Positions 46,658 through 63,679 of a stretch of DNA of 64,000 nt are shown in pieces; within the stretch, counting starts at the first letter, position 1, and the number at the start of each line of letters is the position of its first letter. The notes beneath the pieces are model-generated. The model ran no database searches and was not told the origin of the DNA. It saw nothing but the letters and a program-made list of their open reading frames with translations. This stretch comes from Rhizobium oryzihabitans (GTDB lineage Bacteria; Pseudomonadota; Alphaproteobacteria; Rhizobiales; Rhizobiaceae), in NCBI RefSeq assembly GCF_010669145.1, contig NZ_CP048635.1, positions 1,806,501 to 1,870,500 on the forward strand. The letters run 5' to 3'. The translations under genes were made by a program, and so were the position numbers.

Positions 46658-46665
46658 AAAAAATC

Positions 46666-46675
46666 CTTATATAAG
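46666..46675. promoter_or_regulatory. Palindrome between the LysR gene and choX, candidate operator
   Basis: Perfect 10-bp palindrome CTTATATAAG in the 94-base divergent region, 9 bases upstream of the regulator start and 77 upstream of choX. LysR sites are usually T-N11-A palindromes; this is consistent but short. Confidence 0.35.
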
Positions 46676-46751
46676 ACATCGAAAAATACCCGCTTCACAG
46701 GCGAAAACAATGTGGTGTTCAATAAATTGGACTAATAAAAGGGGAGCCGCA

Positions 46752-47705
46752 ATGAAAACCGTTTCTCATCTGCACCGCATCGCCGCCAGCCTGTTTCTGT
46801 CCGTGGCGGCCTTCTCCACCCCGCTTCATGCGGCCGATGACGCCGCCTGCAAGGCCATCCGCCTCAGCGATCCCGGCTGGACCGACATCACCGCCACCAA
46901 TGGCGTCGCTTCGGTGCTGCTGGATGCGCTGGGTTATGAGGCCGACGTGAAGACGCTGTCGGTGCCGATCGGTTATCAGGCCATGAAGAACGGCGAGATC
47001 GACGTCTTTCTCGGCAACTGGATGCCCGCCCAGAAATCCTTCGTTGATGATCTGAGCGCGGCGAAGGCGGCCGAGGTGATGACGAAGAACCTCGAAGGCG
47101 CCAAGTTCACGCTGGCGGTGCCTTCCTATATGGCGGAAAAGGGCGTGAAGGATTTTTCCGATCTTGCCAAACACGCCGACGAATTTGAAAGCAAGATTTA
47201 CGGCATCGAGCCGGGCGCACCTGCCAATCAGAATATTCAGAAGATCATCGACGCCGATGATTTCGGCCTGAAGGGCTGGCAGCTCGTCGAATCCGGCGAA
47301 CAGGCCATGCTGGCGCAGGTGGAACGGGCGGGCAGGGACAAGAAAGCGGTGGTCTTTCTCGCCTGGGCGCCGCATCCGATGAACGAGAAGATCGATATCG
47401 CCTATCTCTCGGGTGGCGACGCCTATTTCGGTCCGAATTTCGGCGGCGCGGAAGTCTATACGCTCGCCCGCACCGGCTGGCCGCAGCAATGCCCGAATGC
47501 GGCGACGCTGTTCAAGAACCTCAAATTCGATATCGGCATGGAAAACGCCCTGATGGGCTCCATTCTCGGCGGCGAGGATTCCAAGACGGCGGCAACGGCG
47601 TGGCTGAAGGCCAATCCGGCATCGCTGGATGGCTGGCTGCAGGGCGTGACCACGCTGGATGGCAAGCCGGGTGCGGATGCCGTCAAAGGCAAACTTGGCC
47701 TTTGA
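46752..47705 (+). CDS. choX: Choline/betaine ABC transporter substrate-binding protein (ChoX-like)
   Basis: A 317-residue periplasmic protein of the OpuAC/ProX family. Start at ATG 46752 gives a signal peptide (MKTVSHLHRIAASLFLSVAA, cut after LHAA). RLSDPGWTDITATNGVASVL, VPIGYQAMKNGEIDVFLGNW and VVFLAWAPHPMNEKIDIAYL carry aromatic residues that box the trimethylammonium group in ChoX. It precedes betC by 14 bases, so the two are one operon. No permease or ATPase genes (choW, choV) are present in the window, so they lie elsewhere or another transporter is used. Confidence 0.9.
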   Translation: MKTVSHLHRIAASLFLSVAAFSTPLHAADDAACKAIRLSDPGWTDITATNGVASVLLDALGYEADVKTLSVPIGYQAMKNGEIDVFLGNWMPAQKSFVDDLSAAKAAEVMTKNLEGAKFTLAVPSYMAEKGVKDFSDLAKHADEFESKIYGIEPGAPANQNIQKIIDADDFGLKGWQLVESGEQAMLAQVERAGRDKKAVVFLAWAPHPMNEKIDIAYLSGGDAYFGPNFGGAEVYTLARTGWPQQCPNAATLFKNLKFDIGMENALMGSILGGEDSKTAATAWLKANPASLDGWLQGVTTLDGKPGADAVKGKLGL

Positions 47706-47719
47706 GACTGTAGGGTGAA

Positions 47720-49234
47720 ATGCCGCGTCCCAATATTTTGATTTTAATGGCCGACCAGTTCAACGGGACGTTTTTTCCCGATGGTCCGGCCGATTTTCTC
47801 CACACGCCACATCTGAAAGCGTTGGCGGAGCGGTCCGTCCGTTTCGCCAATAGCTATACGGCGAGCCCGCTCTGCGCACCGGCCCGGGCTTCCTTCATGT
47901 CCGGGCAATTGCCAAGCCGGACGCGGGTTTACGACAATGCCGCCGAATTCGCCTCCGACATTCCAACCTATGCGCATCATCTGCGGGCGGCGGGTTACTA
48001 CACCGGCCTTTCGGGAAAGATGCATTTCGTCGGTCCGGATCAGTTGCACGGCTTCGAGGAACGCCTGACGACGGATATCTATCCGGCGGATTTCGGCTGG
48101 ACGCCTGACTATGCCAAGCCGGGCGAGCGGATCGACTGGTGGTATCACAATCTCGGTTCGGTGACCGGCGCGGGCGTTGCCGAAATCACCAACCAGATGG
48201 AATACGACGACGAAGTCGCCTATCACGCCACCCGCAAACTATATGACCTGTCGCGTCGCCTCGATGACCGGCCCTGGTGCCTGACCGTCAGCTTCACCCA
48301 CCCCCATGACCCCTATGTGGCGCGGCGGAAATTCTGGGATCTCTATGAGGATTGCACGGCGCTCGACCCGCAGGTGCAAGCGCTTCCCTTCGAGGAGCAG
48401 GACCCGCATTCGAGGCGGTTGCTGGAAGCCTGCGACCATCGGGCCTTCGATATCTCGCCGGAAGAGATACGCCGGGCACGGCGCGGTTATTTCGCCAATA
48501 TCTCCTATATCGACGAAAAGGTCGGCGAAATTCTCGACGTGCTGAAGGCGACGCGCATGGAGGAGGACACGATCATCCTTTTCCTGTCCGACCATGGTGA
48601 TATGCTGGGCGAGCGCGGCCTATGGTTCAAGATGTGCTTTTTCGAGGGCTCGGCCCGTGTCCCCCTGATGATCGCAGCACCCGGCTGGCAACCGGCGCTC
48701 ATCGACGCGCCGGTCTCGACGCTGGATGTCACGCCGACACTCTGCGGGTTGGCCGGGCTCGATATTACCTCTCTCAAACGCTGGACGGATGGGGAAGACC
48801 TGTCGGCTTTGGCTGCTGGTACTGGCGAGCGCGGTCCGGTGCCGATGGAATATGCGGCCGAGGGTTCGATCGCGCCGCTCGTCGCCATCAGGGACGGCCG
48901 CTACAAGCTCTCGGTCTGCGAGGCCGATCCGCCGCTGCTCTATGATCTTGAGGCTGATCCTCAGGAGCGCACGAACCTTGCCGACAATCCCGAGTTTGCC
49001 GACGTGCTGTCATCGCTTTCCGCCGAGATCGGCCAGCGCTGGCAACTGCCCGTTTTCGACGCATCGGTGCGGGAAAGCCAGGCGCGGCGCTGGGTGGTCT
49101 ACAAGGCGCTGCGTAACGGCGCTTATTATCCGTGGGATTATCAGCCTTTGCAGAAGGCGTCGGAGCGCTACATGCGCAACCACATGGATCTGAATGTTCT
49201 GGAAGAGAACCAGCGTTACCCGCGCGGCGAGTAA
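47720..49234 (+). CDS. betC: Choline sulfatase
   Basis: A 504-residue sulfatase, the usual BetC size. The signature SPLCAPARASFMSGQLPSR has the cysteine (C52) that is converted to formylglycine. Metal ligands: LILMADQFNGTFF at the N-terminus and LFLSDHGDMLGERGLWFKMC near 295. Further features are HPHDPYVARRKFWDLYEDC near residue 195 and the C-terminal sulfatase-C stretch SERYMRNHMDLNVLEENQRY. It cleaves choline-O-sulfate to choline and sulfate in the cytoplasm; choline is then oxidised to glycine betaine. BetA and BetB genes are not in the window. Convergent with the PfkB kinase gene after 12 bases. Confidence 0.95.
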   Translation: MPRPNILILMADQFNGTFFPDGPADFLHTPHLKALAERSVRFANSYTASPLCAPARASFMSGQLPSRTRVYDNAAEFASDIPTYAHHLRAAGYYTGLSGKMHFVGPDQLHGFEERLTTDIYPADFGWTPDYAKPGERIDWWYHNLGSVTGAGVAEITNQMEYDDEVAYHATRKLYDLSRRLDDRPWCLTVSFTHPHDPYVARRKFWDLYEDCTALDPQVQALPFEEQDPHSRRLLEACDHRAFDISPEEIRRARRGYFANISYIDEKVGEILDVLKATRMEEDTIILFLSDHGDMLGERGLWFKMCFFEGSARVPLMIAAPGWQPALIDAPVSTLDVTPTLCGLAGLDITSLKRWTDGEDLSALAAGTGERGPVPMEYAAEGSIAPLVAIRDGRYKLSVCEADPPLLYDLEADPQERTNLADNPEFADVLSSLSAEIGQRWQLPVFDASVRESQARRWVVYKALRNGAYYPWDYQPLQKASERYMRNHMDLNVLEENQRYPRGE

Positions 49235-49246: not shown

Positions 49247-50146
49247 TTATGCGGCGGCGTTGGCTCGCGGCGCGCCGCCCGTGGCCTGCACGGCAAGGCT
49301 GCCCGCCGCCACACCGGCCTCCAGGCATTGCTTCTCGCCCTCGCGCCGAAGCCAGGCATCGATGAAACCGGCATTGAACGCGTCACCCGCGCCGGTCGTA
49401 TCGATGACCGGGACGCTCTTCGCCGCCGCATGGTGCAGTCCTGCCTGCGCGGAAACCCACGCGCCCTGCGCGCCGCCTTTCAGGGCGACGACAGGAAATG
49501 CATCGGAAAGCGCCCTGATAGCCGCCTCGGGGTCGGAATGGCCCGTGATCGCTTCGGCTTCTTCGAGGTTGGGCAAAAACACGTCGACGCCTTCGCAGGC
49601 TTTGAGCAGGCCCTTGTCGTAAATAAGCGAGGCATCCCAGCTAGGGTCGAGCGAGACGGACAGTCCGCTATGCTTCGCACGCGAAACGAGATCGGGGATT
49701 TCGTGAAGCGTGGCGAATTCGGCGATGTGCAGATGGCAGGCCCTTTTCCAGCCAAAGGCGGCATCAAGGGTCGATGGGCGAGCGGCACCGGCACGCCGGG
49801 TCAGGAACGCCCTGTCCTGGCCAACCACGGTTGCGACGGTGACCTGAGGCCCCGCATCCGCCGAATGCTCCAGGAATTGCAGGTCCACACCGCTCTGCTG
49901 CATCTTCTCGCCGATGGCCCGCGAGAATGTGTCGGTGCCGAGCCTTGCCAGCAGCGTGGCCGTGCGACCGATATGGGCGAAATGGGCCGCCGCAATGAAA
50001 GCCCCGCCGCCAGCGGCGATTTCCATGTCGCTGGCAAACAGTTCCCGGCCAAGCACCGGCAATTCGTCAAGCCCGGTGAAAATGAGGTCGCAATAGATGC
50101 GGCCAACACTGATGACCGCTGATTTATCCGTGACTGTCGTCATCAT
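49247..50146 (-). CDS. PfkB-family carbohydrate kinase
   Basis: A 299-residue kinase from ATG 50146, which overlaps the ATPase gene stop (ATGA). The N-terminal [20 protein letters not shown], the glycine pair in [20 protein letters not shown] and the C-terminal anion-hole/catalytic [20 protein letters not shown] (catalytic aspartate in GAGD) are intact. It phosphorylates a sugar or sugar acid with ATP. It is the last gene of the minus-strand operon (binding protein, two permeases, lyase, ATPase, kinase), so it likely acts on the sugar part of the imported compound. Substrate not readable from motifs. Confidence 0.9.
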
Positions 50147-51183
50147 GCGCGGCCCAGAAGCTTTTCCGTCTTGGCATCGAAAACATAGAGCGCGCCTGCC
50201 TGCGCCTGGCATTGCAACCGGCTGCCCACAGTTGGAATGGACTTGCCTCTTGCCGTCGCGATCACGGACGTCGTGGCCGTATCGAGGTGAACCAGCGTTT
50301 CGGGGCCGAGCGGCTCCACGGCGGTGACCGTCCCTTCGAGGGAGAAGGACCCTTGATTGGTCTCGCCTTCTCCAACAAGCAGATCATGCGGGCGAATGCC
50401 GATCAGCAGATCGCCCGTGGCCGACTGCGCAACACTGTTATCTGTTCTCGTGCCGCGCAGCAGGTTCATCGAGGGACTGCCGATGAACCGCGCGGTGAAG
50501 ACATCCACCGGCGTCTCGTAAAGCTCCGAGGGCGTGCCGACCTGCAGGATATGGCCGTCCTTCATGACGACGATCCGGTCCGCCATGGTCATGGCTTCCA
50601 CCTGATCGTGGGTGACGTATACGGTTGTCGTCTTAAGACGTTGATGCAAGCGCTTGATTTCAATGCGCATCTGCGATCTCAATTGTGCATCGAGATTGGA
50701 GAGAGGCTCATCGAAAAGGAAAGCTGAGGGATCGCGCACCATGGCGCGGCCGATGGCGACGCGCTGTCTCTGGCCGCCCGAGAGGGCCGCGGGGCGACGG
50801 TCGAGCAATGCCTCAAGTCCGAGCACCCGACCGGCCTCTTCGATACGCCGGTTCTTTTCCGCCTTGTCGAGCTTTGAGGTATAGAGCCCGAAGCCGATGT
50901 TCTGGCGAACCGTCATATGCGGGTAGATCGCATAGTTCTGGAAGACCATGGCGATGTTGCGCTGTTTCGGTTCTTTCTCGTTGACGACGTTCCCGGCGAT
51001 TCTCAGCGTCCCGCCGGAAATCTCCTCCAGACCCGCGATCATTCTCAGCGTCGTGGATTTGCCGCAGCCGGAGGGACCGACGAAAACGACGAATTCGCCG
51101 TCTTCAATGGCAAGGTCGATGCCTTTGACCGCCTCCACCTTGCCGTAGCGCTTTACGAGTTTATTGAGTTCGATTGTCGCCAT
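50143..51183 (-). CDS. Sugar ABC transporter ATP-binding protein (MalK/UgpC type)
   Basis: A 346-residue ATPase. Walker [21 protein letters not shown] at about residue 35; [20 protein letters not shown] signature at about 135; [15 protein letters not shown]alker B; switch H in [16 protein letters not shown]. The C-terminal TOBE regulatory domain (about 240-346) is present. One-base overlap (TAATG) with the lyase gene upstream and four with the kinase gene downstream, so it is embedded in the operon. Drives the permeases at 52702-54482. Confidence 0.93.
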
Positions 51184-52697
51184 TATCGCGCTCCCGTCAG
51201 GGCGGTAAATTTCTCTGCAAGCTCTGCGGCTTTCGCCGCTTCGTGGTCAGCGGATCTTTGTGCCTCGGCTTCAAGCGTTCCAAGCTTGTCGCGATAGGCC
51301 GCAATCGCCTCCCGCATCGGTTCGGGGGCAGGGCCGCCGAAGCGGCTGCGCACGGCGACGAAGTGCTCGGGCGAGACGATCTGCCTGAACTTTTCCTCGT
51401 CAACGCCGGTCTCGCGTCCGGTCAGTTCCTGGAACGCCTTGCGGAACGGCTGGTAACCGTCGTTTGGCAGGTCACCCTTCAGCGCGACAACGCTCTTGGC
51501 GACGGTCGCGGCAATTTCATGGGCCTGCCGGAATGACAGGTCTTCGATGCGCACGAGGGAATCCGCCAGTTCCGTGATGGTGATGCAGGACCGGCGAATA
51601 TTCTGGTCGACCCTTTCCGGATCGATGCTGATCTTGCCGACGAGGCTGGCAAGGAGATCGAGCATCCGGCCGGCAGAGGCGAAGGCTTCGTAACCCATGC
51701 CCTGGGTTTCACCCTCGCTGTCGTTCATGTCGGTGAAGGGCGTGTTGTGCATCACGTCGAGCATAGTCCGTGCCCGCCCGAATGTCTGGCTGGCAAGGTG
51801 GCGCAGATGTTCGATCGGGACCGGATTTCGTTTCTGCGGCATGATCGACGAGATTTGCACCAGCGAATTCGGCACATAGATTTGCCCGACTTCGAAGCTC
51901 GTCCAGAACTGGAAGTCCTGAATGAGCCTGCCGAGATGCAGGAACATCAGTTCGATGGCGCCATAGGTCGCCGTCGTATAATCGACGGCGGCGATGCAGG
52001 AATAGGAATTGCGCAAGGGTGCCGCAAAGCCGAGAAGTTCTGCAACACGCGCCCGATCAATCGGAAAGCCCGAGGTGGTAATGGCGGCAGCACCCATCGG
52101 CGACAGATCGACGATACGCCGCGCTTCAGTGAAACGGTCGATATCTCGGATCAGCACTTCGATGGCGGCAGAAAGATAGTGGCCGAAGGTGGTGGGCTGG
52201 GCCGGTTGCCCGTGCGTATAGGCGACGATGAGCGTCTTTTCATTGCGCTCGGCAGCGTCGATCAGGGCCGCCAGCAGAAGCCGCGCCTTGGCGGTGAGCG
52301 TGTCGATCTTCTCTTTCAGACCGATCTTGAAAAGCGTGTGGTCGATGTCGTTGCGCGAGCGGGCCGTGTGCAGGCGGCCGGCGATATCGACACCGATGCG
52401 GGCTTTCAGTTCCTTTTCAATGAGGAAGAAGAAATCCTCGACCTCGCCGGTATAGACCAGTTCCGACGGGTTGATGGTCCTGTCGATGTCATCAAGCGCT
52501 CCGGCGATTTTCGCTGCCGTGTCCGCATCGAGAATGCCGGTTTCGCGCAGCATGACCAGATGGGCGCGGTCGATGCGGCGGAAACCGTCGACATGGTGGT
52601 TCTTGGCGCCGTCGAAAAGCGGACGCAGCACGGTTTCCTTGTAGACAGGATCGGGAAACTTGCTGGTGTCGGACAGGCGCGGGTTCATATCGGCCAT
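51183..52697 (-). CDS. Argininosuccinate-lyase-like C-N lyase of unknown substrate
   Basis: A 504-residue member of the fumarase/aspartase superfamily, ArgH branch, longer than ArgH (about 460). The flexible signature loop [11 protein letters not shown] is at residues 283-293. [10 protein letters not shown] (110-119) replaces the ArgH form TGRSRNDQ, and [10 protein letters not shown] (161-170) replaces THLQ-type sequence, so the substrate pocket is altered. Members eliminate fumarate from N-substituted aspartates by beta-elimination. Its place inside a sugar transport operon, not an arginine operon, argues against ordinary arginine synthesis. It may split an aspartate conjugate of an amino sugar or an EDDS-like compound. 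Substrate is inference. Confidence 0.82.
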
Positions 52698-52701
52698 GGT
52701 G

Positions 52702-53544
52702 TTATCCTTTCAGGCCTGCCAGCATCACACCGCGAACGATGTAGCGTTGCAGGACGATGAAGACGATAAGGGTTGGGATGGTCGCAATGGCAGCGCCCGT
52801 CATGATCATTTCCCACTGGATCTGCTGTTCCACGGCAAAGCTCGAGAGGCCGACCGGCAGGGTGTAGAGTTCCTTGCTGGTGGTGACGATGAGCGGCCAG
52901 AAGAATGCAGTCCAGTTGCCGAGGAAGGTGAAGATTGCCAGTGCGGAGAGCGCGGGCGTCACCAGCGGCAGGGCGACCTTCCACCAAATCTGGAATTCGT
53001 TCAGCCCGTCGACGCGCGCTGCCTCGATGAAGTCGTTCGGAACCGTCTCGAAGAACTGTTTCATCAGGAAGGTGCCGAAGGCCGTCATCATTCCAGGGAA
53101 CATGATGCCCCAGTAGCTGTCGAGCCAGCCAAGCTGGCTGGACATCAGATACCACGGGATGACGAGCATCTCCGTCGGGATCATCAGCGTCGAAAGGATC
53201 GCGAGGAAGATGAAGTAGCGACCGCGGAACTCGAATTTTGCGAGCGTATAACCAACCAGGCTGTCAAAGAAGCAGTTGGAAAGGGTGACGATGACCGCAA
53301 CGAAGATCGAGTTGAAGAACCAGCGGAGGAAACGGCCGTCGGCCATCACCGTTATGTAGTTTGCAAGCGTCGGTGCTGCGGGAATGAGCCGGAGGTCATA
53401 GACCTGGTCCGCCGTCTTGAACGAGGTGGAAAACATGAAGAGCAGCGGCGAGACCATGATCAGGCCGCCGATGAACAACAGCGTCCAGGCAAGGATGCGG
53501 CCGGGGCGGATGCGGGCGTGGGAGAGTGGCAGCGCTTCGCTCAT
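52702..53544 (-). CDS. Sugar ABC transporter permease (MalG/UgpE type)
   Basis: A 280-residue permease from ATG 53544, which overlaps the stop of the other permease gene (ATGA). The longer frame to 53829 lies inside that gene and is not used. Six helices. The EAA loop is EAARVDGLNEFQIWWKVALP, and MSPLLFMFSTSFKTADQVYD-like sequence at the N-terminus is typical. A lyase gene follows after four bases. Confidence 0.92.
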   Translation of the reverse strand: MSEALPLSHARIRPGRILAWTLLFIGGLIMVSPLLFMFSTSFKTADQVYDLRLIPAAPTLANYITVMADGRFLRWFFNSIFVAVIVTLSNCFFDSLVGYTLAKFEFRGRYFIFLAILSTLMIPTEMLVIPWYLMSSQLGWLDSYWGIMFPGMMTAFGTFLMKQFFETVPNDFIEAARVDGLNEFQIWWKVALPLVTPALSALAIFTFLGNWTAFFWPLIVTTSKELYTLPVGLSSFAVEQQIQWEMIMTGAAIATIPTLIVFIVLQRYIVRGVMLAGLKG

Positions 53545-54482
53545 TTCTTTTCCCTCAGGACCCAGAGCTGGACCAGCGATACGACAAGAAGAATGGTGAA
53601 CAGGACGACCGTCTGCGCGGCGGCATAACCCATCGCATAGGAATTGAACGCAGTCTGGTAGATCATCAGCACCAGCGGTTTGGTTGAGCCGAGCGGGCCG
53701 CCCGGATCGTTCGTGGTCATGTTGTAGACCTGATCGAAAATCCGCAGGAAGCCGATCGAGGAGAAGACCACGAGGAAGACGGTGGTTGGTTTCAGGAGAG
53801 GCAGCGTGATCTTTCGAAGGATCGCCCACTCGCCAAGACCGTCGATGCGCGCGGCTTCATAAAATGTCGACGGAATGGAGCGCAGGCCCGCCATGAAGAT
53901 GATGATCTGGAAACCGAGGCCCGCCCAGATGGCTGTCACCATGACCGAATAAAGCGCCTGATCGGTGGAGCGGATGAACGGCTGCTGCGGAATTCCGATC
54001 ATCCCGAATACGTCGTTGATGATGCCGATCGGCGGCGGCTGATAGAACCAGCGCCAGACCCAGGCCATCGCCGCTGCCGTCGTCAGATAGGGCAGGAAAT
54101 AGAGCGCGCGGATGAAGCCGTGGAGGATACGCACCCGATCAAGATAAAAGGCGATGACAAAAGCCAGAACGAGGCTGATGGGCGTGCCGATGATGAGATA
54201 GGTGAAGGTGTTCCTGAAGACCTTCCAGAATTGCGGGTCCTTGAACAGCTTGACGTAATTGGCGACGCCGATGAATTTTGCCGGCCGCAGCAGGTCCCAG
54301 TTGGTGAAGGACAGCCAGAAGGCCTGCAGTGTCGGGTAAAAACGGATGATGCTGTAGAACAGGATCGGGATAGCCAGAAAGCTCCAGATCCACACAAGCC
54401 GTTTCGTGCGCATGGAAAAGCGATCCCCGAAGGAGCCGCCGGGGCGGCCGGATGCCGCCCCCTGTTGATCGATCGCTGTCAT
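53541..54482 (-). CDS. Sugar ABC transporter permease (MalF/UgpA type)
   Basis: A 313-residue permease with six helices. An N-terminal cytoplasmic tail precedes RLVWIWSFLAIPILFYSIIR; then FTNWDLLRPAKFIGVANYVK, a typical MalF-type signature. The EAA loop is YEAARIDGLGEWAILRKITL. It forms the channel with the MalG-type permease. It follows the binding-protein gene after 15 bases. Confidence 0.93.
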   Translation of the reverse strand: MTAIDQQGAASGRPGGSFGDRFSMRTKRLVWIWSFLAIPILFYSIIRFYPTLQAFWLSFTNWDLLRPAKFIGVANYVKLFKDPQFWKVFRNTFTYLIIGTPISLVLAFVIAFYLDRVRILHGFIRALYFLPYLTTAAAMAWVWRWFYQPPPIGIINDVFGMIGIPQQPFIRSTDQALYSVMVTAIWAGLGFQIIIFMAGLRSIPSTFYEAARIDGLGEWAILRKITLPLLKPTTVFLVVFSSIGFLRIFDQVYNMTTNDPGGPLGSTKPLVLMIYQTAFNSYAMGYAAAQTVVLFTILLVVSLVQLWVLREKK

Positions 54483-54497
54483 GTCTGGACCTGGGTT

Positions 54498-55751
54498 TTA
54501 GGGTTTGGCCGCGTCGATGATTTCCTGCTCGGCCCCGGCGGCCTGCTTGATGGAGTCTTCGACGGATTGGCCCTCGAGCAAAATCCGGTTCGTCATGTCG
54601 ATGGCGTTCTGCCGCTGGGCGGCCTCGTCCATGAACAGGGTGGTGTGGGCGTATTCGAGACCCTTCAGGAACGGTGCGTAGACCGGGTCCTTCAGGTTCT
54701 CTTCGGTCAGAGCTGCCGCACGCCGTGCCGGCAATTCGCCCACGGTCTTCAGCCAGATCGCCATGGCTTCCGGTGAGGAGATGTAGGCGAGGAATTTCTT
54801 CGACGCTTCAAGCTCTTCGCCGCTCGTCTTGGCGCTGATGCCGTTGGCAAAATAGCTGGCATAGTTGGAGCGGATATTCTTGTCATTGGTGGGAAGCTCG
54901 GTCACGCCCCACTCGAAGTCCTTGATGGTTCTGAACGATCCCAGCCGGAACGTGCCGTCGATGGTCATACCCGCCTTGCCGGCGCGGAAGGCGGCCTGGC
55001 CTTCATCCATGAAGCCCACCTGACCGATCTTCTTTTCAAGCTGCAGGCTGGTGTAGAACTTCAGGGCCTGAACACCCGCCTCGCTGTCATAGGCGACTTT
55101 CTGGTCGTTATCGGTGTAGGGCTCGCCGCCATATTGGCGGATGAGAACCTCGCGCCACCATTGGTGGTCCTGGCCACCCATATCGAGTGTGGAGCCTGCG
55201 ACGGTGAGGTTTCCAGCGGCGTCGTGCTTGGCGATCTTTTCTGCGGCAGCGACGAATTCGTCCAGCGTCTTCGGCGGGTTGGCGGGATCGAGGCCCGCTT
55301 CGGTGAAGAGCTTCTTGTTGTAGAAAAGTGCAAGCGAACGAACCGCCGTCGGCAGGCCGTAATAATCGTCGCCGCGCTTCATGGCGCTGACGATCGGGAA
55401 GAAATCGCTTTCGATCTTGTCATGCGGGAAAGCGTCGGTCGGCAGCGGCTGCAAGATGCCGCCGGCTGCAAACTTATCCAGCCAGCCGTAAAACAGCTGC
55501 ATGACGTCAGGGCCCTTGCCGGACATGTTGGCGGCAATGACGCGCGTCTGGTAGTCGGCGTAAGGGAAGGTCACCTGTTTGACGGTAATGTCAGGATTGG
55601 CCTTCTGAAACTCCGCAATAAGCTCGTCCATCGCTTTGACGCGTGTGTCGAAGACATATTGCCAATATTCGATTTCAACCGCCTGAGCGGCGTTGAACGC
55701 AAATGTGCTGAAGCCGGCGACCAAGCCGGCGAACAAAGTTGCCCTGCGCAT
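54498..55751 (-). CDS. Sugar ABC transporter substrate-binding protein (family 1, UgpB/MalE type)
   Basis: A 417-residue periplasmic protein from ATG 55751 (GGAGG seven bases upstream; 55763 is an alternative). Signal peptide MRRATLFAGLVAGFSTFAFN, cut after NAAQA. Family 1 features: YWQYVFDTRVKAMDELIAEF, ITVKQVTFPYADYQTRVIAA, GKGPDVMQLFYGWLDKFAAG and YYGLPTAVRSLALFYNKKLF. First gene of the minus-strand operon. The divergent ROK repressor gene starts about 255 bases away, with a palindrome at 55930-55947 between them. Confidence 0.92.
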   Translation of the reverse strand: MRRATLFAGLVAGFSTFAFNAAQAVEIEYWQYVFDTRVKAMDELIAEFQKANPDITVKQVTFPYADYQTRVIAANMSGKGPDVMQLFYGWLDKFAAGGILQPLPTDAFPHDKIESDFFPIVSAMKRGDDYYGLPTAVRSLALFYNKKLFTEAGLDPANPPKTLDEFVAAAEKIAKHDAAGNLTVAGSTLDMGGQDHQWWREVLIRQYGGEPYTDNDQKVAYDSEAGVQALKFYTSLQLEKKIGQVGFMDEGQAAFRAGKAGMTIDGTFRLGSFRTIKDFEWGVTELPTNDKNIRSNYASYFANGISAKTSGEELEASKKFLAYISSPEAMAIWLKTVGELPARRAAALTEENLKDPVYAPFLKGLEYAHTTLFMDEAAQRQNAIDMTNRILLEGQSVEDSIKQAAGAEQEIIDAAKP

Positions 55752-55929
55752 GTAAGCCTCCATTTTCCCCGCCCGGTCTTCCGGATGCGGAGTGATCGTT
55801 CCCTTTATCCGCGCTTTCGCGCGCTCTCATCGATTTGCCGGCAGCGGGATTTTCCGTGTTCCACCCCCATGCAAGCCTGACCCCCGGTCGCTCTCTACGG
55901 TTCTCTGAAGGCGGGCATTTGTCAATAAG

Positions 55930-55947
55930 ATAATTTACTTGAATTAT
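55930..55947. promoter_or_regulatory. Palindrome between the sugar transporter operon and the ROK repressor, candidate operator
   Basis: ATAATT (55930-55935) and AATTAT (55942-55947) with a six-base spacer, in an AT-rich stretch unlike its surroundings, 61 bases upstream of the ROK start. ROK repressors bind AT-rich palindromes, so this is a good candidate for self- and operon control. Confidence 0.5.
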
Positions 55948-56008
55948 TATATTGCGCTTATCGTCATTTCAACGCTATGAATTTTCTAACGGACGGGAAG
56001 TTGAAGAG

Positions 56009-57235
56009 ATGACGGTGCACACGGTGGATGCCTATCCCGTAGCAATCGGAAAAAATCCTGAGCGCAGCCGCGAGCACAACCGGCGAGTCGTCCTCGACAT
56101 CGTCCGGCGGCACGGATCGCTCGGGCGTGCTCAGATCGCCAAGATCACGCATCTGACACCTCAGGCGGTTGCCAATATCGTCGATGAGCTGGTGGGGGAG
56201 GAGCTTCTGAAGGAGCTTGGCCGCCGCCGCACCGGCAGGGGCCAGCCGCCGATCCAGTTTGCCGTCAACCCGGATGGCGGCGCGACGATCGGGGTGGAGA
56301 TCGCCGCCGACCACATGGTCACCGTCGGCCTCGATCTCGCCGGTGTGCTGCGCACCCATCGTGTCACGCCGCTCAAGGACACGACGCCGGAAGCCATATT
56401 CAAGACCTTTGCGGCAGAGCATGCCGCGGTTGCCAAAAATGTCGGTTGCAGGCTGCTCGGCACCGGCGTCGTCATGCCCGGACCTTTCGAGATCGACGGC
56501 ATGACCTCAGTCGGCCCGACGACGCTCTCCGGCTGGGTGGGTATCGACGCCCGCCAGATGCTGAGCGAGGCCTGCGGCCAACCGGTCGTGGTTGAAAACG
56601 ATGCGACGGCCGCCGCCGTCGGCGAGCGCCTGTTCGGCGCGGGCCTGGCGATCCCGAATTTCTGCATGATCTATTTTGGTGTCGGCATCGGTCTCGGCAT
56701 CATTCAGGATGGCTCGCCCTATCGTGGCGCGTTCGGCAATGCCGGCGAAATCGGCCATGTGACCGTCTCGCCGAAGGGAAGGCCTTGCCCTTCCTGCGGG
56801 CAAATGGGCTGCCTGGAGGCCTATGCTTCCGTTTATGTGCTCAAGGAAAAGCTCGTCTGCGCCGGTGTGGCGGATACGGAGCTTGACGATCTGGAAGCCC
56901 TGTTCAAGGCCAATAATCCGGTGGTGATGGAGTGGATCGACGAGGCCGCCGTCCATCTGGCGCCGATGGTTGCGATGCTCGAGAACATTCTCGATCCACA
57001 GACGGTCATTCTCGGTGGAGCGCTGCCGGAAATCATTATCAGCGAGATCATTGCGCGGATGGGGCATCTGCCGACTTCGGTCGCAAGCCGGCGGCAAAGG
57101 GAGTTGCCGCGCGTCATCCACGGCAAATCAGGACAGTTGACGGCGGCGCTTGGTGCCGCCGCCCTGCCGCTGTTCGACATCGTCACACCAAAACTTGAGA
57201 CGTCCTTGGGCGCCGCAGCGCAGGTGCCCGGCTGA
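56009..57235 (+). CDS. ROK-family transcriptional repressor
   Basis: A 408-residue protein from ATG 56009 (GAAGAG upstream); the earlier TTG at 55952 is less likely. N-terminal winged helix-turn-helix (about 20-80): RRVVLDIVRRHGSLGRAQIA then THLTPQAVANIVDELVGEEL. The ROK sugar-kinase-like domain follows, with VVENDATAAAVGERLFGAG and the zinc site PCPSCGQMGCLEAYAS. Such repressors are released by a sugar or sugar phosphate. It is the first gene of a plus-strand unit with the PIG-L deacetylase and DMT permease, and is divergent from the ABC operon; it probably controls both. Confidence 0.92.
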   Translation: MTVHTVDAYPVAIGKNPERSREHNRRVVLDIVRRHGSLGRAQIAKITHLTPQAVANIVDELVGEELLKELGRRRTGRGQPPIQFAVNPDGGATIGVEIAADHMVTVGLDLAGVLRTHRVTPLKDTTPEAIFKTFAAEHAAVAKNVGCRLLGTGVVMPGPFEIDGMTSVGPTTLSGWVGIDARQMLSEACGQPVVVENDATAAAVGERLFGAGLAIPNFCMIYFGVGIGLGIIQDGSPYRGAFGNAGEIGHVTVSPKGRPCPSCGQMGCLEAYASVYVLKEKLVCAGVADTELDDLEALFKANNPVVMEWIDEAAVHLAPMVAMLENILDPQTVILGGALPEIIISEIIARMGHLPTSVASRRQRELPRVIHGKSGQLTAALGAAALPLFDIVTPKLETSLGAAAQVPG

Positions 57236-57254
57236 ATATTGGAGGAGACCACCC

Positions 57255-59657
57255 ATGCTTAACCCCCGGGAGCGCATCGAACGGCAGATGGCCGATCCAT
57301 GGCTCGTGCGCCTGCATCGCAAACTGAGCGCACTGAAATCTGCTGTCACCGTCATGCACACCGGCGCGCATCCGGATGACGAGCAGAACGGGCTTCTCGC
57401 CTATTTCCGGATGGAGCTGGGCATGCGGACCATCATCGCCTGCTCGACGCGCGGCGAGGGCGGGCAGAATGCGCTGGGGCCGGAGCGGCTGGGCGCGCTC
57501 GGTGTCATCCGGTCGCGGGAGCTGGAGGAGGCTGCCCGCGTCATCGATGCGGATGTAAGCTGGCTTGGCCATGGCCCGGCGGATATCATTCACGACTTCG
57601 GTTTCTCCAAGGATGGTGACCAGACCTTCGGTCGATGGGGGCAGCAGCGCATCGTCGAGCGCTTGGTGCGCGCCTATCGCAAGGAACGGCCCGATATCGT
57701 CATCCCCACATTTCTCGATGTGCCGGGACAACATGGACATCACCGCGCCATGACGCGCGCGGCGAAAACCGCGATCACGCTGGCGGCCGATCCTGCCGCT
57801 TATCCCGAACATTTCTCCGAGGGGCTGAAACCCTGGAAGGTGGCCAAATATTATCTTCCCGCATGGTCGGGCGGTGGCGACACCTATGATGACGAAGTGC
57901 CTCCGCCGGAGACAACGCTGATAGTCAATGCTCCGGGCAAGGAGGAGGCCACCGGTGCGCAATATGACCGTATCGGCGAATGGTCGCGTTATTACCATGC
58001 ATCGCAGGGAATGGGGCATTGGCCGAAGCGGGCGCAGGAAGTCTGGCCGCTGCATCTTGAGCTCTCCAACGTTGCGGGCGGCGGGGAAAGCTCGATCCTC
58101 GACAGGCTGCCGTCGTCGCTGACCGATCTCTCGGATTTTCCCGGGCTAGACGCCGAATCGGCAAAGGCGCTGGTTGAGGCCGAACGGGAAATCATCGACG
58201 CAATCGCAGCCTTTCCCGACACGCAGCGGATCACGGCGTCACTTCTTTCGGCGGCAACTCTTTTGCAGAAGGTCGACGAGGCCGCAGCCCAGGATTTCAA
58301 GGCGTTGCACGGGCACCGGATCGCGCGCAAACGGGCGCAGGTCGATGCCGCTATCCTGACGGCCCTTGATCTTTTCGAGCGGGCTTATGCCCAGCCGGCA
58401 GAGATCGTTCCGGGCGGAACATCCGCTCTTTATGTGGAACTTGCTGACAAGGCGGGTGAATTTCAGGTCGAAGTTACCCCGGTCCTTCCGGCTGGCGTTT
58501 CCTCATCCGTTCAGTCGCTTGGCCAGACGCGGGTCTTTTCACTTGTCGCCGATCAGGACGCCACTGTTTCCGGTCTCTATCAGCCCGACTGGAAAGCGTC
58601 AGGCGGCAATGGCCATGCCTCGGTGCGCCTTTCCGCAAGGGTCGAAGGCCGGGACGTTTCGGCTAACTTCGATCTGGAGGAGCCGTTTTTCGTAACGCCC
58701 GCGCAGTCGCTGACGATCGCGCCCGATGCGCTTCTGGTTCCGCTTGGACAGGGGCAGGACGCCCATGTTTTTCAGGCGCATATAAGGGGTGCCGATGCGC
58801 CGCTGTCGTTCAGGAGTGCGGGCGGCTGGAACCTGCGCAAGAGCGGCAGCGACTGGATTGCCGAACGCACCGGCGACGCTACGACGGGCCTTGCCCAGAT
58901 CGAAGCGACTGTCGGTTCGCAGCCGGCTTTCCAGATCACGCCGATCGCCTATCCGCATATCGGCCGGACGCGGTTTCTCGCACCTTCCGCTCTGAAAATC
59001 CTCTCGCTGGACCTCAAACTTCCGGAGGGCGCGCGTGTCGGTTATGTCGGTGGCGGTGCCGACCGGGTCGGGTCATGGCTTTCTCGCATGGGTCTTGATG
59101 TCACCGAACTGGATGCGCAGGCGCTTGGCGGTGATCTCTCGTCGTTTACGACGATTGTTGTCGGCATCTTCGCCTTCGGCATCAGAAAGGATCTGGCTGC
59201 GGCAACAGAGCGGCTCCACCGATTCGTCGAAGAGGGCGGCCATCTTGTCACGCTCTATCACCGGCCGACGGATGGATGGAACCCGGAGACGACGCCGGTG
59301 AGGCGGCTCGAGATCGGCAAACCTTCCCTGCGCTGGCGTGTGACCGACCCGAATGCCGAGGTGACGGTGCTGTTGCCCGATCATCCATTGCTTGTCGGGC
59401 CCAACACGATCAGTGCTGCTGACTGGACGGGCTGGGACAAGGAGCGCGGGCTCTATTTCGCCTCGCGCTGGGATGATGTCTATGAGCCCCTGCTTGCCAT
59501 GCATGATGTCGATGAACAGCCCCTGAAGGGTGCGCTGGTCTCGGCGGCGATTGGCAAGGGCCGGCACACGCATACGAGCCTCGTCCTTCACCACCAGATG
59601 GACAAGCTGGTGCCGGGGGCGTTCCGCCTCATGGCAAACCTTGTGCAACCCGCGTGA
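57255..59657 (+). CDS. Three-part PIG-L (LmbE-type) deacetylase
   Basis: An 800-residue protein from ATG 57255 (GGAGGAGACCACCC). The N-terminal PIG-L domain (about 30-260) has the zinc ligands AHPDDE (residues 38-43) and HGHH (160-163). Typical PIG-L proteins have about 230 residues; here a helical linker, a beta-sandwich segment (about 390-560) and a C-terminal GATase-like Rossmann segment (about 600-800, GYVGGGADRVGSWLSRMGLD, GGHLVTLYHRPTDGWNPETT) follow. No signal peptide, so it acts in the cytoplasm. PIG-L enzymes remove N-acyl groups from amino sugars such as GlcNAc conjugates. Co-transcribed with the ROK and DMT genes. Substrate is unknown. Confidence 0.88.
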   Translation: MLNPRERIERQMADPWLVRLHRKLSALKSAVTVMHTGAHPDDEQNGLLAYFRMELGMRTIIACSTRGEGGQNALGPERLGALGVIRSRELEEAARVIDADVSWLGHGPADIIHDFGFSKDGDQTFGRWGQQRIVERLVRAYRKERPDIVIPTFLDVPGQHGHHRAMTRAAKTAITLAADPAAYPEHFSEGLKPWKVAKYYLPAWSGGGDTYDDEVPPPETTLIVNAPGKEEATGAQYDRIGEWSRYYHASQGMGHWPKRAQEVWPLHLELSNVAGGGESSILDRLPSSLTDLSDFPGLDAESAKALVEAEREIIDAIAAFPDTQRITASLLSAATLLQKVDEAAAQDFKALHGHRIARKRAQVDAAILTALDLFERAYAQPAEIVPGGTSALYVELADKAGEFQVEVTPVLPAGVSSSVQSLGQTRVFSLVADQDATVSGLYQPDWKASGGNGHASVRLSARVEGRDVSANFDLEEPFFVTPAQSLTIAPDALLVPLGQGQDAHVFQAHIRGADAPLSFRSAGGWNLRKSGSDWIAERTGDATTGLAQIEATVGSQPAFQITPIAYPHIGRTRFLAPSALKILSLDLKLPEGARVGYVGGGADRVGSWLSRMGLDVTELDAQALGGDLSSFTTIVVGIFAFGIRKDLAAATERLHRFVEEGGHLVTLYHRPTDGWNPETTPVRRLEIGKPSLRWRVTDPNAEVTVLLPDHPLLVGPNTISAADWTGWDKERGLYFASRWDDVYEPLLAMHDVDEQPLKGALVSAAIGKGRHTHTSLVLHHQMDKLVPGAFRLMANLVQPA

Positions 59658-60565
59658 ATGGCCAGAGCCAGAGTGAAAAACAGGAAAACCCGCGCGAAAC
59701 CGATGCTCGCGCGGGCATCGGCTGGCTATTGCTGGATATGGCCCTCGTTTCGGGCGGAATGACAGCCCTCGTCAAGGCGCAGGGCGTTACCTATCCGGCC
59801 TTTCAACTCGTCTTCATCAGGGCGATGATCGGCCTGATCTTCATCCTGCCGCTCATCTGGCGGCACCGGATGGAAATGGTGAACGTCAAATATCCCTGGC
59901 GCAATCTTTTCCGAATCTGCTGCAACGCCATTGCACTCACCAGCAACTTCGTCGCCATCACACTGTTGCCGCTCGCCACCGTCAATGCCGTGGGCTTCTC
60001 CCGCCCGCTGGTGACGATGGCGATGGCGGTCGCCGTTCTCGGCGAAAGGGTGAGCCGATATCGCTGGGCTGGGGCCTGCCTTGCATTTGTCGGCGTTCTC
60101 GTCGTCATCGGACCGGGCGGCGCCGAATTCAACGCAGGCGTGCTCGTCGTCCTCGTCTCGGTGGTGTTCGGTGCTCTTGCGGTGATCCAGACCCGGGCGC
60201 TGCGGCAGGAAAACACCACGGTGATGATGGTGTTCTATACGGTTGGCCTTGCCGTCATTACCGCGGTTCCGGCGATCTGGACATGGAAGCCGATCGCGCC
60301 GCTCGACTGGGGGCCGCTGCTCGCCATCGGCCTGCTTGCGCAAATGGGGCAATATTGTTTCCTGCGGGCCTATCGCATTGCCGATGCAAGCGTGCTCGCA
60401 CCCGTCGGCTATCTGTCGATCCTGTTTGTGACGGCTGTGGGATATTTCCTGTTTGACGAGGTGCCCGAGGCCCGCGTCGTCTTCGGCATCGCCATCATTC
60501 TCGTCTCTCTGCAGGCAACGGCCTTTGCGGAGTATCTCCTGAAGACGTTGCGCCGCCGACGGTGA
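59654..60565 (+). CDS. DMT-family transporter (EamA domains)
   Basis: A 303-residue membrane protein with ten helices and two EamA repeats. The start is GTG 59654, which overlaps the TGA of the deacetylase gene; this frame has no closer ATG. Sequence includes VKAQGVTYPAFQLVFIRAMI, GFSRPLVTMAMAVAVLGERV and APVGYLSILFVTAVGYFLFD. EamA proteins export or exchange small metabolites. Here it may export a product of the catabolic pathway; that is a guess from position. Confidence 0.88.
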   Translation: MNGQSQSEKQENPRETDARAGIGWLLLDMALVSGGMTALVKAQGVTYPAFQLVFIRAMIGLIFILPLIWRHRMEMVNVKYPWRNLFRICCNAIALTSNFVAITLLPLATVNAVGFSRPLVTMAMAVAVLGERVSRYRWAGACLAFVGVLVVIGPGGAEFNAGVLVVLVSVVFGALAVIQTRALRQENTTVMMVFYTVGLAVITAVPAIWTWKPIAPLDWGPLLAIGLLAQMGQYCFLRAYRIADASVLAPVGYLSILFVTAVGYFLFDEVPEARVVFGIAIILVSLQATAFAEYLLKTLRRRR

Positions 60566-61121: not shown

Positions 61122-62015
61122 TCACGATCTGTTCTGCTGAACGCTCGCATACATGCCGGTGGTGCGAAATTCGCTCGGATTGGTGCCGTAAAGCCTGCGG
61201 AAGACCTTGGAGAAGTAGTTCGGATCCTCGAAGCCGCACAGCACGGAAACCTCCTTGATGGGAATGTTGCCGGCCGTGGTGAGAAGCTTCGCCGCCCGCC
61301 GCAATCGTCGCTGCAGCACGAATTCCGCCGGCGGCAGGCCTTCGCTTGCCGTGAAGATGCGGGAAAAATGCGCGCGGCTGAGGCCGGCGACGGCGGCGAG
61401 GTCACTGACGGAAAGCCGCTCGCCGAGATGGCTGTCTATGTAGCTCAGCACCTGCTGCAGGGTGCGATATTCACCGCCGAAAGAGGGATGCGAGCCGAAA
61501 ACGTCGTCATAAAGCGTCATCGCCGCCTCATAGGCAACGGCGGAGGCCGCTCCCGGCGTTTCCGCGCCGTTGACGAGACGCGAACAGCAATAAGCGAGAT
61601 GATCGATGGTTTCCGGCTGAAGCTTGAGGATAGGGCCGGTGACGGAGAGAATATTGCGGTGAATGCGCAGGGCTTCCTCGCCATTCATGGAAATCCAGAA
61701 GAATTCCCATTCCTTGCCCTCTTCCAGCCAGTAGCGATGGTTGTGGGGAATGAGCAGCAGCAGGGTTTCACCCGGTTTCACCACATAATGTCGGTTTTCG
61801 TAGCGCAGATTGCCCTGTCCGCCGATGCAATATTGCAGCACGGTGAACGGCGTCTGGCCGCGCCTTCGCCCGTCCCAATCATAGTTGCCGCTGCTGCGGA
61901 TTTCATAGCCGCTGCTGGTGGGCATGGTGTGCAGGGTCTGGCGTCCGCGCGGCAGCGAGACGGTTCGCATGCCGGGTCCCTGATCGATCAAATCACGCAG
62001 CACAAAATTACCCAT
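61122..62015 (-). CDS. AraC-family regulator of alpha-galactoside use (AgpT-like)
   Basis: A 297-residue AraC protein. N-terminal cupin ligand domain (about 1-150; FTVLQYCIGGQGNLRYENRH, KPGETLLLLIPHNHRYWLEE). C-terminal domain (about 190-290) with ERLSVSDLAAVAGLSRAHFS and then IKEVSVLCGFEDPNYFSKVF followed by GTNPSEFR. Divergent from the GH4 alpha-galactosidase, the same position as the AraC activator of agp genes in S. meliloti. It likely activates the genes at 62213 onward in response to melibiose or raffinose-type sugars. Confidence 0.87.
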   Translation of the reverse strand: MGNFVLRDLIDQGPGMRTVSLPRGRQTLHTMPTSSGYEIRSSGNYDWDGRRRGQTPFTVLQYCIGGQGNLRYENRHYVVKPGETLLLLIPHNHRYWLEEGKEWEFFWISMNGEEALRIHRNILSVTGPILKLQPETIDHLAYCCSRLVNGAETPGAASAVAYEAAMTLYDDVFGSHPSFGGEYRTLQQVLSYIDSHLGERLSVSDLAAVAGLSRAHFSRIFTASEGLPPAEFVLQRRLRRAAKLLTTAGNIPIKEVSVLCGFEDPNYFSKVFRRLYGTNPSEFRTTGMYASVQQNRS

Positions 62016-62212
62016 GAAAGCATAATCCTTCTCTGGTCCTGTCTCTTATTATACGCATAATCCCGATCCGAGGAGACAGCCAGCGGGATATTGCTGCTGA
62101 AAAATTGGGAGGAAGGCCGGTTTTCCGGGATTCTTACGGGTATTTTTCTGTAGCGCCATTTTATGATCCTTCGGCCCGTTTCACCCGTTCGATTTGCAAC
62201 AGAGGTGGCGTT

Positions 62213-63679
62213 ATGAGTTTCAAAATCGCTATTATTGGCGCGGGCAGCGTCGGTTTCACGAAAAAACTGTTCACCGATCTCCTGTGCGTGCCGGAGTTTC
62301 GCGACATCGAAGTCGCGCTGACGGATATCAGCCAGCACAATCTGGATATGATCAAGGCGATCCTCGAAAAGATCGTTGAGGCCAATGGTTTCCCGGTGAA
62401 GGTGACCGCTGATACCGACCGGCGGCGGGCGCTGGAAGGCGCGAAATATATCATCAGCTGCGTGCGGGTCGGCGGGCTGGAAGCCTATGCGGACGACATC
62501 CGCATTCCGCTGAAATACGGGATCGATCAGTGCGTGGGCGATACGATCTGCGCCGGCGGCATCCTCTATGGCCAGCGCAACATTCCGGTCATTCTGGATT
62601 TCTGCAAGGATATTCGCGAGGTTGCCGCGCCGGGCGCGAAATTCCTAAACTATGCCAACCCCATGGCCATGAACACATGGGCGGCCATCGAATATGGCAA
62701 GGTCGATACGGTTGGTCTCTGCCATGGCGTGCAGCACGGTGCCGAACAGATCGCCGAAATTCTCGGTGCGAAAAGCTTGTCCGAACTGGATTACATCTGC
62801 TCCGGCATCAACCATCAGACATGGTTCATCGATCTGAGACTGAACGGCCGCAAGATCGGCAAGGAAGAGCTGATTGCCGCCTTCGAGGCGCATCCGGTTT
62901 TCTCGCAGCAGGAGAAGCTGCGCATCGATGTGCTGAAGCGTTTCGGCGTCTATTCGACGGAAAGCAACGGCCATCTCTCCGAATATCTGCCGTGGTATCG
63001 CAAGCGGCCGGAGGAAATCGCCCGCTGGATCGACATGTCCGACTGGATTCACGGCGAAACCGGCGGTTACCTGCGCCACTCCACCGAGACGCGGAACTGG
63101 TTTGAAACGGAGTTTCCGCAGTTCCTGGCGTCCGCCGCCAAGCCGATCGATCCGGAAAAGCGCTCCAACGAACATGCGAGCCACATTCTGGAAGCGCTGG
63201 AAACCGGGCGCGTCTATCGCGGTCATTTCAACGTCAGGAACAATGGCGTCATCACCAATCTGCCTTCCGATGCCATCATTGAATCCCCCGGTTTCGTCGA
63301 CCGTTTCGGCATCAACATGGTCTCGGGCGTGACGCTGCCGGAAGCCTGTGCGGCCACCTGCATGGCCTCCATCAACGTGCAGCGCATGTCGGTGCATGCG
63401 GCGGTCAGCGGCGATATCGATCTGCTGAAGCTGGCTGTACTGCACGATCCGCTGGTCGGCGCCGTCGCCACGCCGGAGGAGGTCTGGCAGATGGTGGATG
63501 AGATGGTCGTCGCGCAGGCGCGCTGGCTGCCGCAATATGCGGATGCAGTACCGGCGGCGAAGGAGCGGCTTGCGAAATCCAGCGTCAAGACCCGCGACTG
63601 GGCCGGTGCCGCCCGCCGCAATGTGCGTTCCATTGAAGAACTGCGCGCCGAAAAATCGGCGCTGAAAAAGGCTGTTTGA
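62213..63679 (+). CDS. melA: Glycoside hydrolase family 4 alpha-galactosidase
   Basis: A 488-residue GH4 enzyme. Start at ATG 62213 with AGAGGTGGCGTT upstream. The NAD-binding motif IAIIGAGSVGFTKKLF is at residues 5-20; the metal-binding cysteine and histidine are in TVGLCHGVQHGAEQI near residue 175, and NYANPMAMNTWAA just before. GH4 enzymes use NAD and a divalent metal through an oxidation-elimination path. It removes alpha-1,6-galactose from melibiose, raffinose and related sugars in the cytoplasm. It precedes an AgpA-like binding-protein gene, so uptake and cleavage are in one locus. Confidence 0.93.
   Translation: MSFKIAIIGAGSVGFTKKLFTDLLCVPEFRDIEVALTDISQHNLDMIKAILEKIVEANGFPVKVTADTDRRRALEGAKYIISCVRVGGLEAYADDIRIPLKYGIDQCVGDTICAGGILYGQRNIPVILDFCKDIREVAAPGAKFLNYANPMAMNTWAAIEYGKVDTVGLCHGVQHGAEQIAEILGAKSLSELDYICSGINHQTWFIDLRLNGRKIGKEELIAAFEAHPVFSQQEKLRIDVLKRFGVYSTESNGHLSEYLPWYRKRPEEIARWIDMSDWIHGETGGYLRHSTETRNWFETEFPQFLASAAKPIDPEKRSNEHASHILEALETGRVYRGHFNVRNNGVITNLPSDAIIESPGFVDRFGINMVSGVTLPEACAATCMASINVQRMSVHAAVSGDIDLLKLAVLHDPLVGAVATPEEVWQMVDEMVVAQARWLPQYADAVPAAKERLAKSSVKTRDWAGAARRNVRSIEELRAEKSALKKAV

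Follow-up and report, generated by a model that had tools for sequence, protein, structure and literature searches.

Genetic organization of the locus

The window analyzed here is a 64,000-nucleotide stretch of the Rhizobium oryzihabitans genome (C4:1806501-1870500, within the 5.86-Mb genome of this Agrobacterium-type soil bacterium). It carries nine genes that form one unit, a dedicated system organized as two divergent operons. The minus-strand operon comprises six genes, encoding the binding protein, two permeases, and ATPase of an ATP-binding cassette (ABC) importer, an ArgH-like lyase, and a PfkB kinase; the plus-strand operon comprises three, encoding a ROK regulator, a PIG-L protein, and an EamA permease. 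The two diverge at the intergenic palindrome ATAATTCAAGTAAATTAT. Family scans bore out the coordinates and families that a first-pass annotation of this DNA had given to the nine genes, and its description of two divergent operons around a single AT-rich palindrome also held. The features are as follows.

49247..50143, minus strand: PfkB-family kinase, predicted glucosamine (amino-sugar) kinase (PF00294, 136.1 bits)
50143..51183, minus strand: ABC transporter ATPase, UgpC/MalK type (NF008653, 467.5 bits versus a cutoff of 432)
51183..52697, minus strand: ArgH-like lyase, predicted glucosaminyl-malate lyase (fumarate-forming) (Lyase_1, 135.7 bits; ASL_C2, 34.5 bits)
52702..53562, minus strand: ABC permease, UgpE/MalG type (PF00528, 76.1 bits)
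53541..54482, minus strand: ABC permease, UgpA/MalF type (PF00528, 58.5 bits)
54498..55751, minus strand: extracellular solute-binding protein, SBP_bac_1 (PF01547, 137.7 bits)
55931..55946, no strand: predicted ROK operator, core of ATAATTCAAGTAAATTAT (site comparison across homologous intergenic regions)
56009..57235, plus strand: ROK-family transcriptional regulator, predicted repressor (PF00480, 151 bits)
57255..59657, plus strand: three-part PIG-L/LmbE protein, predicted N-acylglucosaminide deacylase (deacetylase or Cys-amidase)
59654..60565, plus strand: DMT/EamA permease, predicted by-product exporter (PF00892, 95.3 bits)

Among solved structures, those closest to the binding protein at 54498..55751 carry the names of sugar- or maltose-binding proteins (E values of 5.2e-26 or weaker).

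Conservation of the nine genes

Relatives were collected by scanning genome contigs with an alignment of the lyase subfamily, and the best 80 of 506 confirmed loci (at least 506 exist) were compared; these are the nearest relatives and no random sample. Homologues were counted at ≥40% identity within 9.5 kb of the lyase, itself present in 80/80 by construction. They were found for the ATPase in 79 loci, each permease in 79, the binding protein in 78, ROK in 76, PIG-L in 74, PfkB in 71, and the DMT permease in 46; several missing homologues belong to loci on short contigs. With the distance limit dropped, the full set occurred in 41/80 loci and the eight genes other than the DMT gene in 65/80. 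The lyase adjoins the ATPase gene in 79/80 loci and a permease gene in 79/80, the exceptions lying at a contig end (L081) and on a 3.5-kb contig (L057). In L066 and L091, the PIG-L match is on the opposite strand.

Among the plasmids, 31 records matched the PIG-L protein, and in all 21 records where it was covered ≥80% at one place, the lyase lay 4.4 to 4.7 kb away. The lyase occurred at >50% identity in 27 records; thus, in these records, the lyase occurs without this PIG-L protein, but not the reverse. The binding protein, two permeases, lyase, and ATPase were together in 13/13 annotations examined out of these 27. In one of the plasmids, from Terrarubrum (L011), the binding protein gene is inverted and an MBL-fold gene is inserted in the operon. 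This insert matches the AidB lactonase model weakly (96.3 bits versus a cutoff of 360), and nadA, L-aspartate oxidase, and nadC genes lie directly downstream of the lyase operon.

The first-pass annotation held that its reading would fail if the two operons were not co-conserved or co-regulated; on the first of these points, the nine genes proved to be co-conserved in relatives. The lyase subfamily itself is patchy. It was found below 1e-200 in 6/398 genomes of a phylum sample, with the next match at 2e-93, and below 1e-110 in 12/385 genomes of a class sample, the window genome being included in both counts. Relatives occur in Hyphomicrobiales, Rhodobacterales, Rhodospirillales, and Deinococcus. 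A further copy, with a lyase 76% identical to that of the window, was found in an assembly titled Bacillus subtilis SK6B4 (L056); it is of Brucellaceae type, its flanking gene clusters are the same as in Pseudochrobactrum L054, and the assembly is probably mislabelled or contaminated.

On seven Deinococcus plasmids, the lyase is 33 to 37% identical to that of the window, and genes for a binding protein and two permeases come next or after an intervening PIG-L gene (7/7). In four of the seven, a ROK gene, a 276- to 281-residue PIG-L protein, and a carbohydrate kinase are also present (only the L137 kinase was scanned, and Pfam assigned it to PfkB). Three plasmids encode a long PIG-L protein that includes NEW3 and CBM9 domains. 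The three short PIG-L proteins tested matched MshB best, at 145 to 161 bits versus a cutoff of 224. Thus, the set recurs in another phylum with a different gene order.

A shared site between the divergent operons

The core of ATAATTCAAGTAAATTAT lies at window positions 55931-55946, within the ROK/binding-protein intergenic region. With at most one mismatch, TAATTNAANTNAATTA occurs at a single place in the 5.86-Mb genome, namely these positions; the reversed-pattern control also gave one match per strand, so that the count alone is not above chance. We further compared 79 ROK/binding-protein intergenic regions, 76 from the best-80 contig loci and 3 from plasmid loci. The pattern TAAYTNAANTRAATTA, composed after inspection of these same regions, was present with at most two mismatches in 75/79 of them, against a background of 5 matches per 3,131,888 strand-bases at the same loci outside those regions. 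No such site was found in L010, L026, L083, and L092, three of which had short or empty regions as cut. These comparisons suggest that the palindrome may be a local regulator site governing both operons.

The lyase departs from argininosuccinate lyases on the arginine side

The lyase has the fold, the SSxMPxKxNP signature, and the SRN and TH residues of the fumarate-forming Lyase_1 superfamily. Its AlphaFold model (predicted local distance difference test [pLDDT] score, 78.9) matched EDDS lyase best (PDB 6g3d; E value, 6.1e-23), followed by argininosuccinate lyases (ASLs). In a tree, the alphaproteobacterial and Deinococcus lyases were split from ASLs and three other lyases with support of 100/98, with a long-branch warning on their join.

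We compared residues of 10 alphaproteobacterial and 7 Deinococcus members with those of five ASLs. S114, R115, N116, D117, H162, Q164, S283, S284, K289, and N291 are common to all, and T161 is kept throughout except in one Deinococcus member. The altered active site claimed by the first-pass annotation was thereby confirmed in part. HTARSRND, which had been taken for an altered ASL motif, is also read in the Arabidopsis and Thermus ASLs; the following residue and the arginine-side loop do differ. The residue after HTARSRND is Gln in 5/5 ASLs and Ile, Met, or Leu in 17/17 members. ASL residues Q118, D293, Y323, K325, and Q328, the last four of which are present in 5/5 ASLs, are replaced in 17/17 members, and the ASL loop LPLAYxKDMQEDK becomes HNxPFxDxND, with H317, N318, F321, D323, and D326 common to 17/17 members (D326 also in ASLs). 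The replaced positions are presumably those that bind the arginine part in ASLs.

Thus, the lyase shares with ASLs the fold, the superfamily, and the HTARSRND, THxQ, and SSIMPQKxNP motifs, but differs from them in the loop, at residues 118 and D293, and in its sugar uptake context. Elsewhere, at C4:674101-675387, the genome has a likely true argH whose loop is of the ordinary ASL kind. The lyase of the locus is probably not a functional ASL. EDDS lyase, which we take to be a fumarate-forming lyase serving the breakdown of a conjugate, is the top structural match but only 26% identical. In our alignment, the Asp and Tyr changed in its D290M/Y320M variant (6rx8) align with Val and about Met in the lyase. 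Fumarase belongs to the same superfamily, and by analogy the lyase may eliminate across a C-O bond.

Deaminase and kinase genes point to glucosamine

NagB and NagB-II act on glucosamine 6-phosphate. A glucosamine 6-phosphate deaminase gene was found in or near the operon in 17/107 alphaproteobacterial loci (10 NagB, 7 NagB-II), compared with 1/40 controls, which were 20-kb stretches taken from eight genomes that carry the family; the sole control match (L195) is probably GlmS. Because the deaminase queries were the Loktanella, Paroceanicella, and Roseomonas proteins, three of the 17 were found by construction; the other 14 were recognized by phmmer to these three query proteins only. NagB occurred in seven Devosia loci, Skermanella, Loktanella, and Paroceanicella, and NagB-II in three Brucella/Ochrobactrum loci, Roseomonas, and genomes G382, G598, and G339. 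The NagB-II gene is divergent from the binding-protein gene in G598; in G339, it is encoded on the other strand, some 2 kb past the operon. The Loktanella and Paroceanicella NagB proteins pass TIGR00502 (249.1 and 242.1 bits; cutoff, 236.9), and for the Roseomonas SIS protein the best NCBIfam match is NagB-II, at 313.4 bits, under the cutoff of 430. None of the nine window genes was a glucosamine 6-phosphate deaminase in family scans.

In Loktanella, Paroceanicella, Roseomonas, and Skermanella L079, an unrelated ROK kinase stands in place of PfkB. The recurrence of two non-homologous deaminases and two kinase families is a stronger point than the counts. The recurrent NagB and NagB-II neighbors indicate that the released sugar is most likely glucosamine, and we consider it quite probable that the system serves the catabolism of a glucosamine conjugate. 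Like N-acetylglucosamine (GlcNAc) utilization (NagK, NagB, NagC), it has a ROK regulator and, in related loci, a kinase and a glucosamine 6-phosphate deaminase; unlike it, the nine genes include no NagA by family scan, and phosphorylation would come only after deacylation, with a lyase step in addition.

The PIG-L protein

The 57255..59657 protein has a PIG-L/LmbE domain and fold. The predicted structure of this 800-residue protein broadly upheld the three-part organization described in the first-pass annotation, with the PIG-L fold at residues 29-288, a helical stretch, and a beta-sandwich region at residues 372-587; the prediction of the C-terminal part is too poor for naming. The bacillithiol enzymes BshB/Bca and the mycothiol enzymes MshB/Mca are also LmbE/PIG-L proteins, from which the window protein differs in its length and its two further regions. 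Matches to the Mca, MshB, and BshB2 models were weak (24.7 to 32.2 bits) and far under the cutoffs, with BshB2 at 24.7 bits versus 195.25; BshB1 was not listed. In the window genome, a match search found no BshC (B. subtilis, Thermus, and Deinobacterium controls were positive) and no PIG-L protein besides this one; thus, the system is not one of thiol biosynthesis. No PIG-L gene accompanies the Paroceanicella and Roseomonas loci, which would use a deacylated substrate or a deacylase encoded elsewhere. According to a 2014 review (PMC4101496), the LmbE-like enzymes known by 2014 have substrates with an N-acetyl- or N-acylglucosamine core.

A proposed salvage pathway for glucosamine-malate conjugates

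From the observed gene set, co-conservation, shared intergenic site, replaced arginine-side residues, and recurrent deaminase genes, we propose a pathway whose reactions, order, substrate, regulation, and DMT permease direction are predictions. The need for a deacylase, a fumarate-forming lyase, a sugar kinase, and sometimes a deaminase makes an N-acylglucosamine joined to malate the simplest substrate. We hold with moderate confidence that the system salvages such a conjugate: GlcNAc-malate, glucosamine (GlcN)-malate, or bacillithiol (Cys-GlcN-malate). The ABC importer would take up the conjugate, and the PIG-L protein would remove the N-acyl group to leave GlcN-malate. The ArgH-like lyase would then carry out a beta-elimination at the malyl C-O bond, yielding fumarate and free glucosamine, which the PfkB kinase would convert to glucosamine 6-phosphate; NagB or NagB-II, encoded beside the operon in some species, would form fructose 6-phosphate, which enters glycolysis, and ammonia. 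The ROK regulator would bind the palindrome and control both operons. The DMT permease would export a by-product, which might be cysteine or the acyl part set free by the PIG-L protein; both direction and cargo are guesses. All three conjugates are known compounds, and D. radiodurans produces bacillithiol (PMC4360819).

Compared with the first-pass annotation, the dedicated system, the probable non-ASL lyase, and the N-acylated amino-sugar conjugate are retained, and deacylation, fumarate release, and sugar phosphorylation remain the predicted steps. The sugar is now most likely glucosamine. For the acid, malate linked through oxygen is judged likelier than aspartate linked through nitrogen, since among known metabolites it is GlcN-malate that fits, and 17/17 members have Val where ASLs and EDDS lyase carry Asp after NP. 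GlcN-malate handling, earlier regarded as only a partial parallel, is now our best explanation.

Several observations weigh against this pathway. The lyase passes the NCBI argH model TIGR00838 (304.8 bits versus a cutoff of 279.5), and the solved structures closest to it are those of C-N lyases. In its model, residues 162-165, 202-209, and 321-327, the last being the active-site loop, have pLDDT values of <50, so that the pocket cannot be read. The fold matches of the PIG-L protein include GalB, a hydratase, and PIG-L proteins are not restricted to GlcNAc. Because the 107 loci are related, the 17 deaminase cases are not independent, and in 90/107 the fetched stretch contains no deaminase gene. 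In Shinella and Bosea, minimal versions lack kinase, PIG-L, and deaminase genes within 9 kb of the lyase. The NagB-II homologue of the window genome (C1:2492226-2493241) matches in two pieces; these pieces (L176, L177) overlap in different open frames, as in a broken gene or an assembly error.

A narrower and only tentative version of the GlcN-malate pathway is that bacillithiol itself is eaten, in which case cysteine would be released. The PIG-L protein would be a bacillithiol amidase freeing cysteine and GlcN-malate, and the lyase a glucosaminyl-malate lyase, a new C-O fumarate-forming class of the ArgH family. The cysteine sulfur would be handled by the DMT permease or by the neighboring thiol dioxygenase, class V, or persulfide dioxygenase genes. 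Beside the DMT gene in Roseinatronobacter lies a gene annotated as cysteine dioxygenase family; its product has no match among the Pfam and NCBIfam models, though it does match thiol dioxygenases of solved structure (E value, 9.2e-14). In Aminobacter, a persulfide-dioxygenase-like protein (561.4 bits versus a cutoff of 625) and a class V enzyme are encoded beside the system, and class V enzymes are also found near it in Loktanella and Devosia. Against this version, the sulfur neighbors are not clearly enriched: class V enzymes occur in 5/107 loci versus 1/40 controls, the persulfide dioxygenase SDO in 3/107 versus 0/40, and thiol dioxygenase in 1/107 versus 0/40. Such neighbors are compatible with bacillithiol use, and the counts are no proof of it. 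In three loci of genus g352 (L165, L167, and L168), lyase and PIG-L genes are adjacent with no match to the sugar ABC importer; of the two whose neighbors were scanned, L165 and L167, both encode family-5 (peptide-type) binding proteins close by and L167 also a permease, and the peptide-type transporter genes of L167 would suit peptide-like bacillithiol.

Class V aminotransferase-like and persulfide- or thiol-dioxygenase-like genes were seen near the system in L138, L181, L132, L045, L066, L088, L092, and L010, and an Lrp regulator accompanies the class V aminotransferase-like gene in L132 and L181.

Alternative substrates

GlcNAc-asparagine from N-glycans is common in nature. This or another N-acylglucosamine conjugate, such as a plant or microbial glycoside, could be the substrate, with the lyase acting on a non-malate part, and the deaminase and PIG-L protein would suit any GlcNAc conjugate. 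We consider it unlikely: GlcNAc-Asn breakdown offers no obvious place for a fumarate-forming lyase, and no gene named aspartylglucosaminidase or asparaginase was present in the annotated plasmid regions examined. Rather improbable, too, is the conjugate of the first-pass annotation, glucosamine N-linked to aspartate or succinate (an N-substituted aspartate) and cut at a C-N bond as by ASL or EDDS lyase. The genomic glucosamine evidence fits it equally well, and C-N lyases are the closest relatives of the lyase among solved structures; the Val that replaces the Asp after NP speaks against it, and no natural compound of this kind is known to us.

It is highly improbable that the substrate is fructosyl-aspartate or another Amadori or glycosylamine compound, used as in fructoselysine pathways. 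The PfkB kinase does match fructoselysine 6-kinase weakly (50.6 bits versus a cutoff of 247), whereas the deaminases act on glucosamine 6-phosphate, there would be nothing for PIG-L to do, and for the Roseomonas SIS protein the fructoselysine 6-phosphate deglycase score is 26.9 bits versus 313.4 for NagB-II. Finally, it is scarcely credible that the lyase is a second ASL associated with a sugar operon by chance: it is named ASL in public records, as would follow from passing TIGR00838, but it adjoins ATPase or permease genes in 79/80 loci each, its arginine-side residues are altered in 17/17 members, and a likely true argH lies elsewhere.

Relation to known pathways

Searches of open-access papers turned up no pathway described for this gene set, for GlcN-malate breakdown, or for bacillithiol catabolism; the enzyme families are known, and the reaction and pathway are probably new. 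If the GlcN-malate reading is true, the system would be a breakdown route for the core of bacillithiol, a protective thiol of other bacteria, and a nutrient link from thiol-making to rhizobia-type bacteria. It would also add a new lyase reaction and give a better name to a group of argH-labelled genes. A genome survey (PMC12719100) reported the full bacillithiol pathway for 1,466 species of Bacillota and 2,111 of Bacteroidota.

Neighboring genes

A choline-sulfatase-type sulfatase gene (Sulfatase and Choline_sulf_C domains) at window positions 46620-49234 adjoins the nine-gene locus as a separate system, and the gene that precedes it resembles those for glycine-betaine-type binding proteins. 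On the other side, at 61122-63679, an AraC-like regulator gene lies beside an apparent GH4 alpha-galactosidase gene, as judged by sequence, probably an unrelated galactoside system.

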